A DNA stretch of 47,986 bases from contig JAKQPK010000074.1 of the NCBI GenBank assembly GCA_029564765.1, forward strand, positions 1 to 47,986, read 5' to 3'. The notes below the pieces were generated by a model. The model made no database searches and was not told where the DNA came from. It saw only the letters and a program-made list of their open reading frames with translations. The translations under genes and the position numbers were made by a program. This stretch comes from Candidatus Omnitrophota bacterium (GTDB lineage Bacteria > Omnitrophota > Gorgyraeia > Zapsychrales > Aceulaceae). Positions 1-7,284 of this stretch are shown here, in pieces; position 1 is the first letter of the stretch, and every line of letters begins with the position of its first letter.

Positions 1-3000
1 AAATTCGGCTCAAAGCTAAGACTGCCGAAAGAATATTGCTCTCCCTTAGGGTCTTCCTCTGCAAACTTGATCCCTTCAACCCTAAAGCCAAGATGTCCTG
101 CAGCAAAATTATAATCTGAACCTGCTTCAATGGGCGCAATGTCAGTAATAACGCGGGTATTGGGATCTGAAGCATCAACAAAAGAAATTTCCTTTAAAGG
201 CAATGGCCCAACTAAGCTTTCGCTAGGCTGGCCGTTATCTTTCGGCGCTGGCTGTGGCGCGTCTAAATAAGGAGAATAAATGAAAGCAGCTGTATTTTTA
301 GCAAAGAAATCTAAGCTATTGGTGTTTGAAACCGCCTCAAACCCTTTAAGATTAGTATATGACTTAATACCTGTGATATTGCCTTGATCATCTTCTACAA
401 CTTCCATCTTCCCGTCTTTAATAAGCGTCTGGATATCTGCTTCTTCTTTGCCTAGCAAAGAAGATAGATTCTTGACCAAGGTTGCTTCTGTCATTGGCTT
501 ATGAACTTGTGTCTTAACACCATCGGCGCGGCCATAATAAGTGGGCTGCTCGTCAGCTTTCTTCATCATGACCTGAACAGGATTATCAAGGCTAGCGGTA
601 AACTCAACATCCCCAGCTCTGACCATGGCATACTGACCATCTTCTGTTGGCGGTCCCATAGGAACTTCTGCGTTTCTTTCTGAGATCTGCTGCAGCCCTA
701 CTTTTGAGTGTCCGTACAAAACATCTTTTTTGCCGCTACCATCTTCTTTTGACCCTCGATCAACAACCAGCGATCGGCGAGCGATCTTTGAATCCGCATC
801 AAAGCCAAAAGTGTCGGTGGTCGCTAAAAGCTGCTCTTGTTCTTCCATGCGGGAAGCGAACATGCCATCTGACATGAAAAGGCTTTCGCTTCCTAATATC
901 ATAGGCATGCCAACAAGAGCCAGCGGATTGGTCTCAACGAGTTGATTTTCTTTTGTAAAGGCATTTACCTTGTAACCCCAATCGCCTTTGGCTGAGGCGT
1001 AGACATTAAAGCCTGCCCCTGCGTTAGCATTTCTCTTAAATCCCAAAGCGCCAAGATAGCTTCCTGCCTTTGCTCTGTTAGCAAGGGTAATATCAACCCG
1101 CACCTCGCCTTGGGCGTGCGCAAGTTCATCGCTTAAGAAAGAAAATACCGGTCGCTGGGCAACGCGATCCGCCCCAAGGCGGTCCATTGTTTCGCGAGCA
1201 GCTGCTTCGTTCACGCCTTGTGTACCGTTCAGGTAGGCCTTTCCATCTTTATATACAAGCCTTATAGCCTCACCACCCTGTATGATGCCGGCCTCGCTGA
1301 GGTCAACATTTTTTAGAACAAGATTGAACGAACTGTTGTCAAGGATCGTTTTTCCGGTCTGAGAATCTACGTAAGAGCCAGGCGTGCCTTCAGCAACAGT
1401 CTTTTTATTGATCGTCCTGATAAAGCTGTCGCCGTCATTAAGGTCGCTGAAATACTTTGCTGCTTTTTCGCGCTTTGAAAACAACAAAGGTGCGGCTAAC
1501 ACATTGCGCAGCATGCCTGAAGCTAATCCGTCAATACGGGTTCCTGTTTCATAAGCGATCGTTTCATCTTTTGTCCGGCGGATAACTCGATCCCAAGGCG
1601 TATACAGCGCCATCATCACGGTGCCGCCTTTGACAAGATCGGTAACAACTTTTCTATCACCTAACCCGATAGCGCTTAAATTAAGTCCTCCTTTGGCATA
1701 CTCCAACGCTGAAAAAAGGTTTTGCGTGGATGCTTCACGAAGCTTGTTTGTTTGAAATCTATATAAATTTCTTTCATAGGTGTTGTTAGCGACCATCCAA
1801 TTGACACCGTCAATTGTTTGCTGGCGCGACAGGGCGATCTCTTCCGCGGTCATCGGATTGCCTGATTGCGCGGCCAAGGCGATCTTTTCTTCGTTCTTGG
1901 CAATGGCCTTCTTGCGAGCAGTGTCATACTGGACAAGGAATTGCGGAGTAAATCCGGACAGGTCCATAATATGATCAACAAAATTCATCTGCGCGCGCGA
2001 TCCTTGGTCATAATAAGCGATCTTGCCTTGACTGGCGCGATTCTTGGCTTCTTCCGCTGTCTCGCCTGTTTGTGATCCAAGTCCGCCCAGTCCAAAATAA
2101 TCTTTGATGAATACAAGATTGCGATTAGCAAATTCATTGATCGCAACATCAGAAAATCTTTTCTTTTTGGCCTGCTCTGCAGAAACGGTTTGGGCTTGAT
2201 CCAGATCCCCCGAAGAAGATTTTTTTGACTTATTTTCAATGGAATATTGGATGCCAGCGGCGACTCCGGACAAGGCCGCAGTGGTCAAGTGAGCAAGAGC
2301 ATAAAAATTCAAGTCCGCGTCTTGAGCGCTGATCTTTCCATCGTTGATACGGTTGATCTTAGCTCTATCGAAAGCATAACCAACGCCGGCTTCAAGAAGG
2401 CCGCGGCCGATCGTACCGCTCAGTTTTTTCCAAGGACTACCAAACTGTATAATATTATTAAAATTGTCTTTCTCTGCCAACATTTCAATCTTGTCGATGT
2501 TGGTATACACCTCTTTTTGGACATTAGCGCCAGTCGCATCTGTGGAATTAAAACTTTTAATGTTTGCCAGCGCGGTCACATCCTTTGATGTAGAATCTTC
2601 GGAAGCTAAAACTTGCTCATGGATATGAACGACACCAGGATTCTTAGTATCAATGCCCTTAACCTCAAAGAAAGAAACTGTCTTATCATCAGGATTGACA
2701 TAAAAGCCATAGCCGTTCTTTGCTAAATCTTTTCCAAGATTCTTTGTTTTCTTATACACATCCCGCCAGTTATCGTTCTTAACCTTTTCTCCGTTCTCGA
2801 TGATAAAATTCCCTTCTTCATCTTTCTTATACTTAAAGTCTTCTTTGCTAAGTTCCTTTTTGGATACTTCGAACTGGATCGAAAGCCATTGGTTTCCTTC
2901 TTGCTTTTTGGCAGCGCGATATTCTGCTCGCCAGTTGCTGTTGAAATCCTCTTTCCCGTCATTATTAGTATCCGTATCCAACTTATTAGGATCATCCAAG

Positions 3001-5000
3001 CTGTATTTATAACGATCTTTTGTGATCCGCTTTCCTTCGCTGTCATAAAGCCTTGCCCTGTTAGGCGAGAGGAAGTCTTCCATCACGACCTGCGTAATAG
3101 AGCTTCCTAGTTGTTGCATCCCCTGAACAAACATGCTTTGGATCGCGTTTCCGTCCTTGTCTTTCATGCTGTCCTTGGTCAACTGCTCAGCCGCAAAGCC
3201 TAAGCCGGCACCTCCGGCAACCACAATGGCATTCTTTCCTTCGATCTTCAGCGTGTCGACGATCTTATCACCAAAAGAAATCTCTTTTCCGGATTTGATC
3301 CCAAAATCTTCCGCAACGTTAATATTTCCCTCATCTCCTGCAAGATTCGCCAAACCATCCACGCCAGCTGTTATCGCAACTGTAGATAAATTGGAAATAG
3401 CAGAGATGGCGATCCCGGCGATCGCTTGCTTGAGAACATCGCTTTCAATGCCGGAGTCTTCAAGCAGTTTAGTGATCTGATAACCAACAAATCCCTTAAC
3501 AGCGCCTACCGCAAGCCCTGTGCCAAAATTAATAAGAAAGTTAGTTGCGATCGTGTTTGCACTTGCGCTGATAGCGCTTGAAGCGATTGTATTAAGCGCA
3601 ACTGCGGAAGTCATGGTTGGATTAAGAGCTTGTGCCGCAGAAGCTGCCTGCTCGATCGTTGTAATAGCATCAGCGGCTGTTTCAACGCCATTAATAACAA
3701 CGGTTCCTCCATTCTTAATAACCTCTTCTTGAACCGCGCCTACAGCAGATTTATCAAGAGCACCAGCCGCTCCTTGAACTGCAATGGTGATCGCTGTTGC
3801 AACAGCGCTACAGATGATCCCTGTTGTTTGCGCATCCCATCCCCACTTCATAACGCCTATTTGCCCAACAGTATTAACAAAAGCGGCAACGGAACGGGAA
3901 AGCATATATGACTTATAAAGACCCGCAAGCGTTGTTCCCAGGTTTAAGAGCTTCCCAACGCCAAAAGTAGCGACCATGCACACAACATCAATAAGCAGAG
4001 AAGTCCAAAAGCTGGAAGCATCGAAAGCTTGCGACTTGATAATATCTTCATAAGGATTAGCCCACTGCGAACCCCAGATAAATGCTTGTTTTTCATGAGA
4101 AACGATCTCAGCACCCTGAAGATCACTTGCGCTGGAGGCCAACACATAGCCGGTAAATTTATTTAAGAAATCCTCTTTAAAATAGACCTTTTGCTCGCCA
4201 ATATCGCTAACAGTGATCGTTTCATCCGCTACCTCGGTCACCAGCACAAAGTGCTCGGGCTCAAGACTGGCAATAAACGGAACCTCAACCTCATCAAGGC
4301 TTTCTTTGGCTATCTTATAAGACTTAACGTTCAAGCCATAAGCTGTCGCGATAGAATTTAAAGAGTATAAAGATGTTTTTAGCCGAGGTTCGCCGGCCTT
4401 GATGATCTTGCCTAAAATGTCCACAGTTAAGGTCAAAACGGATGCTTCTTCAAGGCCAATACCAACATGGTTCTTTTGCAAGAGATCACGTAAAGCATAA
4501 ACACCGCAGTTCAAATGGTGAATGCTTGGCTGTTTTAGCCAGCTATCAAAACTATTAATATCATCTTGGGTAAACTTGGCGGAAGTGGTCAGGATCAAGC
4601 CCTGATTGTTGGTCGCGCCTGATACACCTGTGTTGGGAAGCTCGATCTTAACCCGTGATTGTTCTTTATCACGAATTTGCGTAAGAAGGTCCTTGATGCT
4701 TTCTGAGACAGTGGCGGCTGCCTTGACACCAACAAACGCATCCACCTTCTGGCGGCCCCAAAGGACAGCAGGATTATAATTAAAAGCCGCACAAATTTGC
4801 TCAGGGGTAAAGATCAGGACAACAGCCAAAGCAACGGCACGGATCCAAGGACGGATATTGCTGCGATATGTTAGGCCAGATTCAACTTCTGCGGAGGCGG
4901 AAGGCTTGGAAAAACCCACAAAAAGACCATTTAAGTACAAAGAAGAAAGACTCTTTGTCTTTATGGTATTAGATATGTGGTTCATCTTTTGTTTTTCCAT
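1..5000 (-). CDS. Giant exported protein with C39-like cysteine peptidase domain (5' part, runs off window)
   Basis: I read an uninterrupted minus-strand frame of about 1666 codons from the ATG at 5000 to the window edge; the C-terminus is missing. Residues 50-72 hold a charged then hydrophobic segment (RPWIRAVALAVVLIFTPEQI) that looks like a late signal sequence, as seen in very large Omnitrophota-type proteins (family style recalled, not searched). Residues about 155-270 resemble a C39 papain-like peptidase: NCGVYAL with Cys165, PEHFVLV with His250 and VSDIG with Asp266, in the order and spacing of a Cys-His-Asp triad. Several long hydrophobic Ala/Gly/Val stretches follow (about 310-520), then Asp/Asn-rich segments and a long soluble region rich in polar residues. 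Substrate and role are unknown; it may be a self-processing or processing-linked surface protein. The start is set by the promoter and leader at 5001-5138; the Shine-Dalgarno sequence is weak. Confidence 0.8.
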   Translation of the reverse strand, partial: MEKQKMNHISNTIKTKSLSSLYLNGLFVGFSKPSASAEVESGLTYRSNIRPWIRAVALAVVLIFTPEQICAAFNYNPAVLWGRQKVDAFVGVKAAATVSESIKDLLTQIRDKEQSRVKIELPNTGVSGATNNQGLILTTSAKFTQDDINSFDSWLKQPSIHHLNCGVYALRDLLQKNHVGIGLEEASVLTLTVDILGKIIKAGEPRLKTSLYSLNSIATAYGLNVKSYKIAKESLDEVEVPFIASLEPEHFVLVTEVADETITVSDIGEQKVYFKEDFLNKFTGYVLASSASDLQGAEIVSHEKQAFIWGSQWANPYEDIIKSQAFDASSFWTSLLIDVVCMVATFGVGKLLNLGTTLAGLYKSYMLSRSVAAFVNTVGQIGVMKWGWDAQTTGIICSAVATAITIAVQGAAGALDKSAVGAVQEEVIKNGGTVVINGVETAADAITTIEQAASAAQALNPTMTSAVALNTIASSAISASANTIATNFLINFGTGLAVGAVKGFVGYQITKLLEDSGIESDVLKQAIAGIAISAISNLSTVAITAGVDGLANLAGDEGNINVAEDFGIKSGKEISFGDKIVDTLKIEGKNAIVVAGGAGLGFAAEQLTKDSMKDKDGNAIQSMFVQGMQQLGSSITQVVMEDFLSPNRARLYDSEGKRITKDRYKYSLDDPNKLDTDTNNDGKEDFNSNWRAEYRAAKKQEGNQWLSIQFEVSKKELSKEDFKYKKDEEGNFIIENGEKVKNDNWRDVYKKTKNLGKDLAKNGYGFYVNPDDKTVSFFEVKGIDTKNPGVVHIHEQVLASEDSTSKDVTALANIKSFNSTDATGANVQKEVYTNIDKIEMLAEKDNFNNIIQFGSPWKKLSGTIGRGLLEAGVGYAFDRAKINRINDGKISAQDADLNFYALAHLTTAALSGVAAGIQYSIENKSKKSSSGDLDQAQTVSAEQAKKKRFSDVAINEFANRNLVFIKDYFGLGGLGSQTGETAEEAKNRASQGKIAYYDQGSRAQMNFVDHIMDLSGFTPQFLVQYDTARKKAIAKNEEKIALAAQSGNPMTAEEIALSRQQTIDGVNWMVANNTYERNLYRFQTNKLREASTQNLFSALEYAKGGLNLSAIGLGDRKVVTDLVKGGTVMMALYTPWDRVIRRTKDETIAYETGTRIDGLASGMLRNVLAAPLLFSKREKAAKYFSDLNDGDSFIRTINKKTVAEGTPGSYVDSQTGKTILDNSSFNLVLKNVDLSEAGIIQGGEAIRLVYKDGKAYLNGTQGVNEAAARETMDRLGADRVAQRPVFSFLSDELAHAQGEVRVDITLANRAKAGSYLGALGFKRNANAGAGFNVYASAKGDWGYKVNAFTKENQLVETNPLALVGMPMILGSESLFMSDGMFASRMEEQEQLLATTDTFGFDADSKIARRSLVVDRGSKEDGSGKKDVLYGHSKVGLQQISERNAEVPMGPPTEDGQYAMVRAGDVEFTASLDNPVQVMMKKADEQPTYYGRADGVKTQVHKPMTEATLVKNLSSLLGKEEADIQTLIKDGKMEVVEDDQGNITGIKSYTNLKGFEAVSNTNSLDFFAKNTAAFIYSPYLDAPQPAPKDNGQPSESLVGPLPLKEISFVDASDPNTRVITDIAPIEAGSDYNFAAGHLGFRVEGIKFAEEDPKGEQYSFGSLSFEPN

Positions 5001-5107
5001 AGCTTTCGCTCATGAAAAAGGGCTATGGTTCTTTGCAGAAAGCCATAGCCCACAAATTAATAAATGATACCTTTTACAACTACTGATCCCGTGGCTTTAC
5101 TGCAAAG
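4997..5107 (-). promoter_or_regulatory. Structured 5' leader with alternative hairpins before the giant protein gene
   Basis: Seen in the sequence, reading the minus strand: GCTATGG occurs twice, once in the 5' arm of a terminator stem (5049-5043) and once over the start codon (5003-4997). The single complementary CCATAGC (5028-5022) lies between and can pair with either copy. A second pairing links the leader 5' end (5107-5092) to the terminator arm and loop (5045-5031), 15 pairs with one bulged base. So the RNA can form a terminator, a start-codon-masking hairpin, or a long-range or pseudoknot pairing. This is the architecture of a riboswitch or protein-controlled attenuator, but I recognise no known ligand class. 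Confidence 0.5.
5015..5051 (-). terminator. Intrinsic terminator in the leader of the giant protein gene
   Basis: On the minus strand a perfect 9-bp stem, GGGCTATGG (5051-5043) with CCATAGCCC (5028-5020), encloses a 14-nt loop and is followed at once by TTTTT. It sits between the promoter at 5111-5138 and the start codon at 5000, so it can only act on this transcript, as an attenuator. Confidence 0.65.
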
Positions 5108-5110
5108 GAG

Positions 5111-5138
5111 AATATAGCACAGAGCGATTAAGTGTCAA
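5111..5138 (-). promoter_or_regulatory. Sigma70-like promoter of the giant protein gene
   Basis: On the minus strand TTGACA (5138-5133), a 16-bp spacer and TATATT (5116-5111), preceded by TG-C as in an extended -10. It predicts a start near 5104 and a leader of about 105 nt. The 12 bp CTGTGCTATATT recur upstream of the pilin operon at 15057-15068. Confidence 0.6.
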
Positions 5139-5538
5139 GTATTGGACATTCTTTATCCTGTTGTATTACAATACTTTACAGTAATTCAAGAAAATATTTA
5201 CGCATCTTTTCTAAGAAAGCGAGTATTTGAGCAATATGGCAAAAACGCGTGTCAAGGCCTCTTGATAAATTTCTCCAGCCCTAAGGTCAGAGCTCTTAAG
5301 AGATCTTGTCTGTTTTTCCATTATCTCCGACGAGAAGATAGATCATTGCTGATCACGAATATTAAAACACGCACAAAACATCATCAGCTATTTAGGGTTA
5401 CGCAACAATGAAATGATACAGGATACAAGAAACAAAAAGGTGGGAGAAAAGAAAAATTTATGTGATTTTTACCGAAGAATATTTTTGGACATTATAGAAT
5501 GGACAAAAATATGCTTAAAAATGTCCAGAATTGGATTT
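5139..5538. other. Intergenic region between tadC and the giant protein gene
   Basis: About 400 bp in which I see no convincing gene; short open frames have no ribosome site and no recognisable protein. TGGACA or its complement occurs at 5143-5148, 5486-5491, 5500-5505 and 5522-5527. The last two form an inverted repeat just past the tadC stop codon that could act as a weak end-of-operon hairpin or as a protein-binding site. Confidence 0.5.
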
Positions 5539-6423
5539 TTATCCGCCGGCGAGCTTCGAAAATGTGTTGCCTTGCATGAACTGCAAGAGCACTGGACCAG
5601 CAACAAGAATACCTACGACAGGAAAGATGCAGAATAAAAGAGGGAAAAGCATTTTTAAAGGTGCCTTGAGGGCTACTTGTTCTCCGCGCCGATATCTGGA
5701 AATACGCATATCCTCCGAAATGATGTTCAGCGCGTCGGCGACAGATGTTCCCATGCGATCCGCTTGTACAAGCGCGCGGGTAAAAGTGGACAGGTCAGGG
5801 AGCTGATATTTATTGGCAAAATCTGTTAACGCATCTCTGCGCGGCTTTCCCAGGTTGACTTCCTGCAAAACCTGCTGAAGTTCTAAGATAAGGATCGAGG
5901 GGATCGACTTCTCAATGACCCATTTAAGGGCCAACAAAAAGTCAAGGCCAGCGTTCACGCACAAGCTTAAAAGATCAATGGTGTCCGGCAAATGCCGAAC
6001 GATCGAGTTCTTGATCTTCTGGATCTGGCCCTTCAGCCAGAACTCTGGAAGATAATATCCCAAACCGATCGTCATCAAAAGCCATAAACCTCGATTCTCA
6101 GGATCAGACATAGGGTATGTGAAAAAGAGCAATCCAGCGATCAAGATCTCCTTGATCAACAAAAAAACCTCTGGAGAGATCGGAATGCGCGCTAGGGCCA
6201 GGTCTTTACGCAGTCGCTCTCCCAAGGCCCCTACGCATAAAGGCATATTAAAAAAAGCTAAAGACGTCAAAAATGAAAATTTATTACTTTTCTTTTCTTC
6301 TTTTGGAAATTCATCTGCCAATATCTTTAATGTTGGCGGCTCTTCGATCTTGACGATCGAAAGAAGGCCCACTGCAAAAGCCAGAACACAAAAGAATGTT
6401 AATCCTAAGATCAAAGCGATCAT
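5539..6423 (-). CDS. tadC: TadC-like pilus assembly platform protein (GspF family)
   Basis: 294 aa. Inner-membrane platform protein of a Flp/Tad pilus machine. An N-terminal membrane segment (about 1-22) and further hydrophobic segments around 85-125 and 265-285 flank a cytoplasmic GspF/T2SF helical domain with LPDTIDLLSLCVNAGLDF, typical of TadC. It follows tadB by 3 nt and is the last gene of the pilin-tad operon, as in many tad loci. TadB and TadC together are expected to couple the TadA ATPase to pilin extraction. Assignment as TadC rather than TadB rests on order and this motif. Confidence 0.88.
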   Translation of the reverse strand: MIALILGLTFFCVLAFAVGLLSIVKIEEPPTLKILADEFPKEEKKSNKFSFLTSLAFFNMPLCVGALGERLRKDLALARIPISPEVFLLIKEILIAGLLFFTYPMSDPENRGLWLLMTIGLGYYLPEFWLKGQIQKIKNSIVRHLPDTIDLLSLCVNAGLDFLLALKWVIEKSIPSILILELQQVLQEVNLGKPRRDALTDFANKYQLPDLSTFTRALVQADRMGTSVADALNIISEDMRISRYRRGEQVALKAPLKMLFPLLFCIFPVVGILVAGPVLLQFMQGNTFSKLAGG

Positions 6424-6426
6424 ATA

Positions 6427-7284
6427 TTAAAAATCTCCTATCGTGCTAAATTTGATAATGAAGAATGCGCCAACGATCTCAAGCCCGGCAGACAAAATAA
6501 GCAAGTTACGTCCTAACTCTGATTCAAGCATGACATCAAAATAATGAGGATTTGACCCATAAATAAAGACCGCAAAAGCGATCGGCAACAAAGACATGAC
6601 AAAGCCCTGGATCTTTCCTTGGACCGTTAAGGTTTCAATGTTCTGCTGGATCTTGCGGTTCTCGCGAATGGTCTGGATAATACGATTAAAGATGACTGGC
6701 AAGTTACCGCCAGTCTCTCTAGCGAGCAAAACAGCGGAAATAAATTGCTGCAAGGCGGGGCTTCCCAAGCGGGCATAAAGCCTATCAAATGAGGTTTCCA
6801 AAGAAACCCCCATCTTGTTCTCGCCGATCAAGATCGCGAATTCCTGGCTGATAGGCTCAGGCATTTCATCAGCTACAACTTCCATGGCCTGCAGCAAGCT
6901 TAGCCCGCCTTTCAAGCCGCTATTCATCATTAAAAGAGAGTCGATCAGCTGCGCGTAGAATTTACGTTTTCGCTGCGCAGCAAGATAACGGATATAAACT
7001 CCTGGGGCTATAAACCCTAAAATAAGACCGATCAAGGATACCGGAAGACGCAGATGATCCGGCGCGAAAAGAAAACCGGCACCCGCGAGAATAAAAGGCG
7101 CCAGCGCATACATCAAGACCGTTTGCTTTTTCTTGACCCGGATGAACATCTGGTCCATGGTATCTGCCATCTTATCCGCTCGCCTTCTGCTAAAACCCCC
7201 CAGAAGACGGATAAGGTCCGGCAAAAAGAAAAAAGCAAAACTGCTAATAGAGAAAAAGGAGAGGAAAAAAATAAGAAATCGCAT
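6427..7284 (-). CDS. tadB: TadB-like pilus assembly platform protein (GspF family)
   Basis: 285 aa. N-terminal hydrophobic segment (about 1-20), a second pair around 60-100, then a T2SF domain with GLKGGLSLLQAMEVVADEMP and LARETGGNLPVIFNRI, which match TadB/GspF helical bundles, and C-terminal membrane segments (about 215-280). It should form the inner-membrane platform with TadC and interact with the TadA-like ATPase encoded at 17617-19776. It starts 12 nt after the TadG-like gene and ends 3 nt before tadC, so the genes are co-transcribed. Confidence 0.88.
   Translation of the reverse strand: MRFLIFFLSFFSISSFAFFFLPDLIRLLGGFSRRRADKMADTMDQMFIRVKKKQTVLMYALAPFILAGAGFLFAPDHLRLPVSLIGLILGFIAPGVYIRYLAAQRKRKFYAQLIDSLLMMNSGLKGGLSLLQAMEVVADEMPEPISQEFAILIGENKMGVSLETSFDRLYARLGSPALQQFISAVLLARETGGNLPVIFNRIIQTIRENRKIQQNIETLTVQGKIQGFVMSLLPIAFAVFIYGSNPHYFDVMLESELGRNLLILSAGLEIVGAFFIIKFSTIGDF

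Follow-up and report, generated by a model that had tools for sequence, protein, structure and literature searches.

Giant open reading frames and Tad loci have been described in Omnitrophota, and the giant genes are presumed to act in attachment or predation (PMC10066038). Nothing on the control of their expression was found in the literature searched, nor any paper that brings together c-di-GMP, riboswitches and Omnitrophota. The 5' part of such a gene, preceded by a compact leader, lies in the stretch of DNA analyzed here (the window; 47,986 nucleotides, contig C7 of the 1.86 Mb Omnitrophota genome G000), which raises the question of what this leader does. It was compared within the family of the window (f1; four genomes, G000-G003, three of them from one genus), the class was searched for homologues of the giant gene and 40 further upstream regions were read. 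Candidatus Aceula is among the nearest relatives of G000 that were compared.

The giant gene and the promoter of its leader

On the minus strand, a frame of 1666 codons is open from position 5000 to the window edge (3-5000), and residues 202-289 of its product form a Peptidase C39 domain. N-termini of homologues (MEKQ / MKRQ / MKRQ) back the start codon at 5000, and homologous frames in the class reach up to 57,756 codons. Cut at the contig end (window 3-140), the frame continues on contig C53 (G000:C53:13049-13186) in a frame of 4395 codons, the two overlapping by 46 identical residues. The giant gene is immediately preceded by two T2SSF genes (5539-7284), of the kind found in Tad pilus loci.

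The first-pass annotation had placed promoter, leader, terminator and start codon within about 140 bp before the giant gene, and all of these elements, including a leader of about 100 nt and a terminator hairpin, were indeed present at 5138-4997 of the minus strand. The -35 element TTGACA (5138-5133) and the -10 element TATATT (5116-5111), the latter preceded by TG, are separated by 16 nt and together match in 11 of 12 positions. The same TTGACA-16-TATATT arrangement is found in G001-G003, and in all four genomes it is preceded by GTCCAAT, so that by comparison the promoter is credible. Transcription is predicted to start at about 5104-5101; a start near 5104 would lie upstream of nearly all leader elements that had been noted.

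Just 5' of the -35 element, a ATTGGACA box (TGTCCAAT on the minus strand; 5141-5148) is common to the family. The corresponding word AGAWTGGACA / TGTCCAWTCT is present in the window at 5141-5148 and 5496-5505 and, throughout the order, is concentrated around the giant-gene locus; further copies precede the giant gene in L009-L031, G008:C13, G010:C138 and G005:C42. In 49 kb of leader sequence AATGTCCA was counted 60 times, but the word is not a genome-wide repeat, and it is a candidate operator.

Terminator and predicted antiterminator strands

The terminator is formed by strand B (GGGCTATGG, 5051-5043) and strand C (CCATAGCCC, 5028-5020), followed by a U-run of five (T5, 5019-5015). With -19.1 kcal/mol (z -3.9) the hairpin at 5051-5020 was matched by none of 200 shuffles. 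A G+C-rich hairpin with a U-run, as in intrinsic terminators, was detected in G000, G001 and G003, the U-run being longer in the latter two, while G002 has kept the long hairpin and lost the U-run (CCCTTAAAAATTT). In G001-G003 the terminator reads GGGCTGTGGCT..CAGCCC and stands behind AAAAGCCACGGAA. When only the arms were aligned and the loops taken out by hand, 97% of cells were paired; one base pair had changed on both sides from G-C to A-U, a compensatory exchange that supports the terminator, and wobble changes were also observed. A strict hairpin scan separated f1 and its sister family f9 better than a relaxed version, whose strand bias over 1 kb was weak (169 sense, 124 antisense). In G001-G003 the giant gene itself contains a second hairpin, followed by T8, within its first 45 codons (L008 1414-1458; L015, L007); it reaches z -6.7 in G001 and is weak in G000.

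Upstream of the hairpin lies strand A, AAAGCCACGG (5098-5089), which can pair with the terminator arm. AAAGCCACGG, AGTA and GGGCTnTGGCT are invariant across the family, and AAAAGCCACGGAA is found upstream of the homologous gene in G001, G002 and G003, in two copies in the latter two. The pattern GCCACGG-N20..50-GGGCTnTGGC occurs at one locus per genome in all four, each time at the giant gene; likewise, every family genome has a single locus with promoter, AAAGCCACGG and hairpin, always 5' of this gene. The comparison thus establishes the parts of the leader and their conservation, while the folds described below and their order are predicted.

In the window, strand A is extended to CTTTGCAGtAAAGCCA (5107-5092), although transcripts may lack the portion that precedes about 5104, and its partner TGGCTTTCTGCAAAG (5045-5031) spans terminator 5' arm and loop. 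This is the third pairing that had been proposed between the leader 5' end and the terminator, and it was recovered: CTTTGCAG-t-AAAGCCA (5107-5092) with TGGCTTTCTGCAAAG yields -22.0 kcal/mol (0 of 1000 dinucleotide shuffles as good), and -17.3 when counted from the predicted start (TGCAG...; 4 of 1000 shuffles). The A:B duplex was calculated at -14.4 (G001), -16.2 (G002) and -14.3 kcal/mol (G003), energies matched by no more than 2 of 500 shuffles. When limited to the 14-nt core strand, A:B in G000 reaches -10.2, an unremarkable value that 87 of 500 shuffles matched; here the changed terminator leaves a C.A mismatch, and strand A did not follow. Because strand A is invariant, A:B shows no covariation. 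Covariation in orthologous leaders, which the first-pass annotation had suggested looking for, was seen in the terminator; the start-codon pairing is confined to G000.

Step-wise folding of growing transcripts predicted that A:B forms ahead of strand C in all four genomes. For the G000 leader up to the hairpin end, the antiterminator fold is the minimum (-21.1 kcal/mol) and beats the terminator. Once the full hairpin is present, the antiterminator remains the lowest-energy fold in G000 and persists in part in G001, whereas the terminator takes over in G002 and G003. As modeled, a conserved upstream strand pairs with the terminator arm in a manner mutually exclusive with the terminator; this strand exchange is a conserved sequence feature, whose predicted set point varies between species.

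Among 86 leaders, a few of which come from one genome counted twice, AAAGCCACGG occurs 29 times in sense and never in antisense orientation or as reversed control, partly inside and partly outside aptamers. Genome-wide, AAAAGCCACGGA was counted 0-4 times per genome, about twice the reversed control over 246 genomes, and is thus not a genome-wide repeat. A profile search of genome contigs with alignment A1 returned 37 loci, mostly in the same genomes; a contig search with P0001 alone as query gave no match.

Leaders of homologous genes and the c-di-GMP-I riboswitch

The claim that the leader matches no known riboswitch class held for the window's leader itself: searched against Rfam at both thresholds, the window and the loci gave no family at the leader. 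RF03167 did not match the f1 leader at E<=10, and the gathering threshold for RF01051/RF03167 was not reached. The claim did not extend to the homologous gene in f9, which is preceded by a c-di-GMP-I riboswitch whose core shares AAAGCCACGG. Rfam placed the c-di-GMP-I-GGC riboswitch (RF03167) in 19 leaders, 18 from f9 and one from f55 (L117), with 56.7-68.1 bits; 17 of the 19 exceed the gathering score, which L130 and L123 narrowly miss. Riboswitch and terminator together were seen before the giant gene in L110, L113-L115, L117, L118, L120-L125, L128-L131 and L133-L135. A further such riboswitch was detected in L119 (f9), where it precedes the conserved protein core by over 1 kb. Control of giant genes by c-di-GMP is accordingly put forward as a candidate for f9 and one f55 genome.

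The riboswitch core of these leaders, CRCAAAGCC[AG]CGGRTCY, contains AAAGCCACGG, and the f9 leaders share the terminator GCCGGGYTGCCGAA..TTTGACARYCCGGY-TTTTT. In the f9 consensus structure (model R1, built from the 19 f9/f55 leaders), AGCC-A-CGG pairs with CCG-GGYU, which is the terminator 5' arm. Several f9 leaders (L114, L124, L125, L134) have an extra AAAAGCCACGG between transcription start and aptamer, and f1 leaders start similarly; AAAAAGCCACGG shortly after the start is common to f1 and several f9 leaders. L111 (f9) has kept AAAGCCACGG and the terminator while the remaining aptamer has diverged (16 bits, E 0.33), which is suggestive of a partly eroded intermediate. Between terminator and start codon, f9 leaders L113-L135 carry a conserved GGGGTAAGGGGGAA..TATATAGG block.

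Model R1 matched neither f1 nor order leaders, and the P1b hairpin (GGYAAAC / GRCRCAAAG core) was not found in the leaders of G000-G003. The AAAGCC(A)CGG core strand is present at 5098-5089 and invariant in the four genomes, with only about 6 nt between the predicted transcription start and AAAGCCACGG in G000. Since the ligand-binding hairpin is missing in the family, c-di-GMP is not expected to act on this leader as its direct ligand. The absence of the sensor is not accounted for by loss of the ligand, as c-di-GMP signaling looks intact in G000, which encodes GGDEF proteins and has four c-di-GMP-I riboswitches elsewhere (C30, C17, C20, C9). No covariance model connects the f1 leader with the riboswitch; the case for their homology draws on a 10-nt word, on where it stands and on the gene that follows.

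In other families of the order, short frames (M-R-x-A-T) are combined with GCCACGG and a terminator RRCTACC..GGTAGYY, and the frames vary. The M-R-x-A-T frames lie between promoter and terminator in L009, L011, L013, L016, L019 and L021, and in the same loci a second small frame overlaps the giant-gene start. In family f7, the promoter is located directly at the start codon. Read together, these sequences suggest that the order leaders may represent different states of a single ancestral leader.

Proposed attenuation, its alternatives and known systems

These results point to a transcription attenuator that occupies the 5' leader of a giant gene linked to a Tad pilus. Transcription would begin near 5104, and strand A (AAAGCCACGG, to which the window adds GCAG on the 5' side) would, as it emerges, pair with strand B (in the window, with B and the loop), giving read-through as the default outcome of co-transcriptional folding. 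If strand A were sequestered or occupied, B would pair with C (CCATAGCCC), and hairpin and U-run would stop transcription about 15 nt before the start codon. This arrangement is the one seen in the expression platform of the c-di-GMP-I riboswitch in front of the f9 homologue. A choice between terminator and antiterminator as such is probable; that the attenuator is related to a c-di-GMP-I riboswitch leader and lost, or never had, the sensor is an evenly balanced proposition that draws on sequence comparison and predicted folds. Descent from a riboswitch leader and present control of strand A are inferred, and AAAGCCACGG may originally have been an element of its own that predates the riboswitch. 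It is conceivable, although unlikely, that the expression platform outlived its sensor and that AAAGCCACGG, retained in one or two copies, now answers to a protein or trans-acting RNA by which it is bound, and so controls a giant gene with a presumed role in attachment or predation.

Among the alternatives, a plain intrinsic terminator or stabilizing hairpin that lowers a costly gene to a fixed extent without switching fares best and is still rather doubtful; GCCACGG would then have been retained for some other purpose, for instance protein binding, and would complement the arm by chance. This alternative would agree with the hairpin as the best-supported element, with a strand A that stayed invariant though its partner changed in G000, with the missing U-run of G002 and with leader terminators in order relatives. 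It does not account for the significant A:B pairing in G001-G003, for the longer pairing in G000, where the core pairing is weakened, and for the f9 riboswitches, which show the identical exclusivity of A:B and B:C.

Leader-peptide attenuation, in which AAAGCCACGGAA would be part of a short frame (K-A-T-E) and the ribosome would decide which hairpin forms, appears improbable. M..KATE frames do exist in G001 (TTG start) and in G003 (GTG start, through the hairpin), and among the order relatives with M-R-x-A-T frames between promoter and terminator, L011/L019 encode A-T with other codons. In G000 and G002, however, the KAT frame over the decision region has no ATG, GTG or TTG, and in L113 and L129 the word is read in another frame (K-P-R), so that the nucleotides are kept and not the peptide.

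Translational control was suggested by the first-pass annotation, which noted that GCTATGG is present twice (5049-5043 and 5003-4997, the second copy containing the start codon) with its single complement CCATAGC (5028-5022) between them on the minus strand. This is correct for the sequence, and the layout recurred in 11 of 3000 leader shuffles; over the whole window, five such word/complement places within 70 nt were counted against a mean of about one per shuffled window, the other four being A/T-rich words. The pairing CCATAGC:GCTATGG is specific to G000 and absent in G001-G003, and the claim that termination and start-codon masking are mutually exclusive states is not supported for the family. 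A hairpin of the U-run and CAU with AUGGAAAAA, with GCGAAAGC inside (5019-4992), could also mask the AUG by pairing with the A-run after it. Its predicted stability is high in G000 (-8.7 kcal/mol, matched by 1 of 500 shuffles) and intermediate in G003 (-6.2), but the hairpin is absent in G001 (-0.5) and G002 (0.0). Start-codon masking as a second state was rejected, as the pairing is not conserved across the family, and translational control is quite improbable. Of the proposed riboswitch or attenuator layout, the attenuator is supported, with strand A and hairpin kept in all four genomes and a compensatory change in the terminator, and the masking state is not. A new ligand-binding riboswitch class, as envisaged earlier, would fit the conserved AAAGCCACGGrAnnAGTA block with its expression platform and the missing Rfam match, but is very improbable, as length and sequence vary outside this block and no aptamer-sized conserved fold was seen in the family leaders.

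For giant genes, the riboswitch before the f9 homologue represents a concrete and testable input. The attenuator of the window's family may be the f9 expression platform minus its sensor, with L111 as a partly eroded intermediate; if so, loss or replacement of the sensor in riboswitches becomes open to study.

In leader-peptide attenuators of the trp/his type, a terminator or an antiterminator is chosen before the first gene. The window resembles them in this choice, and some relatives have short frames; unlike them, it has no leader-peptide start codon. With the c-di-GMP-I GGC variant of f9 it has the gene, the kind of promoter, AAAGCCACGG and its position in the leader in common, and in both the terminator 5' arm pairs with either a GCC.CGG strand or the terminator 3' arm. 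In contrast to f9, neither the P1b hairpin (GGYAAAC..GRCRCAAAG) nor the GUCC..GGAU stem is present in the leader of the window, and RF03167 does not score it; AGCCACGG against CUGUGGCU would be used in the same way as AGCC-A-CGG/CCG-GGYU, without the ligand-binding hairpin. By analogy, the f9 riboswitch would have an ON-switch layout resembling that of pilM. In pilM-type ON switches, as predicted for the window's leader, a pairing on the aptamer side excludes the terminator and is needed for read-through, but there the ligand stabilizes the antiterminator (PMC9262584), whereas the window's leader has no aptamer and its antiterminator is predicted to be stable alone.
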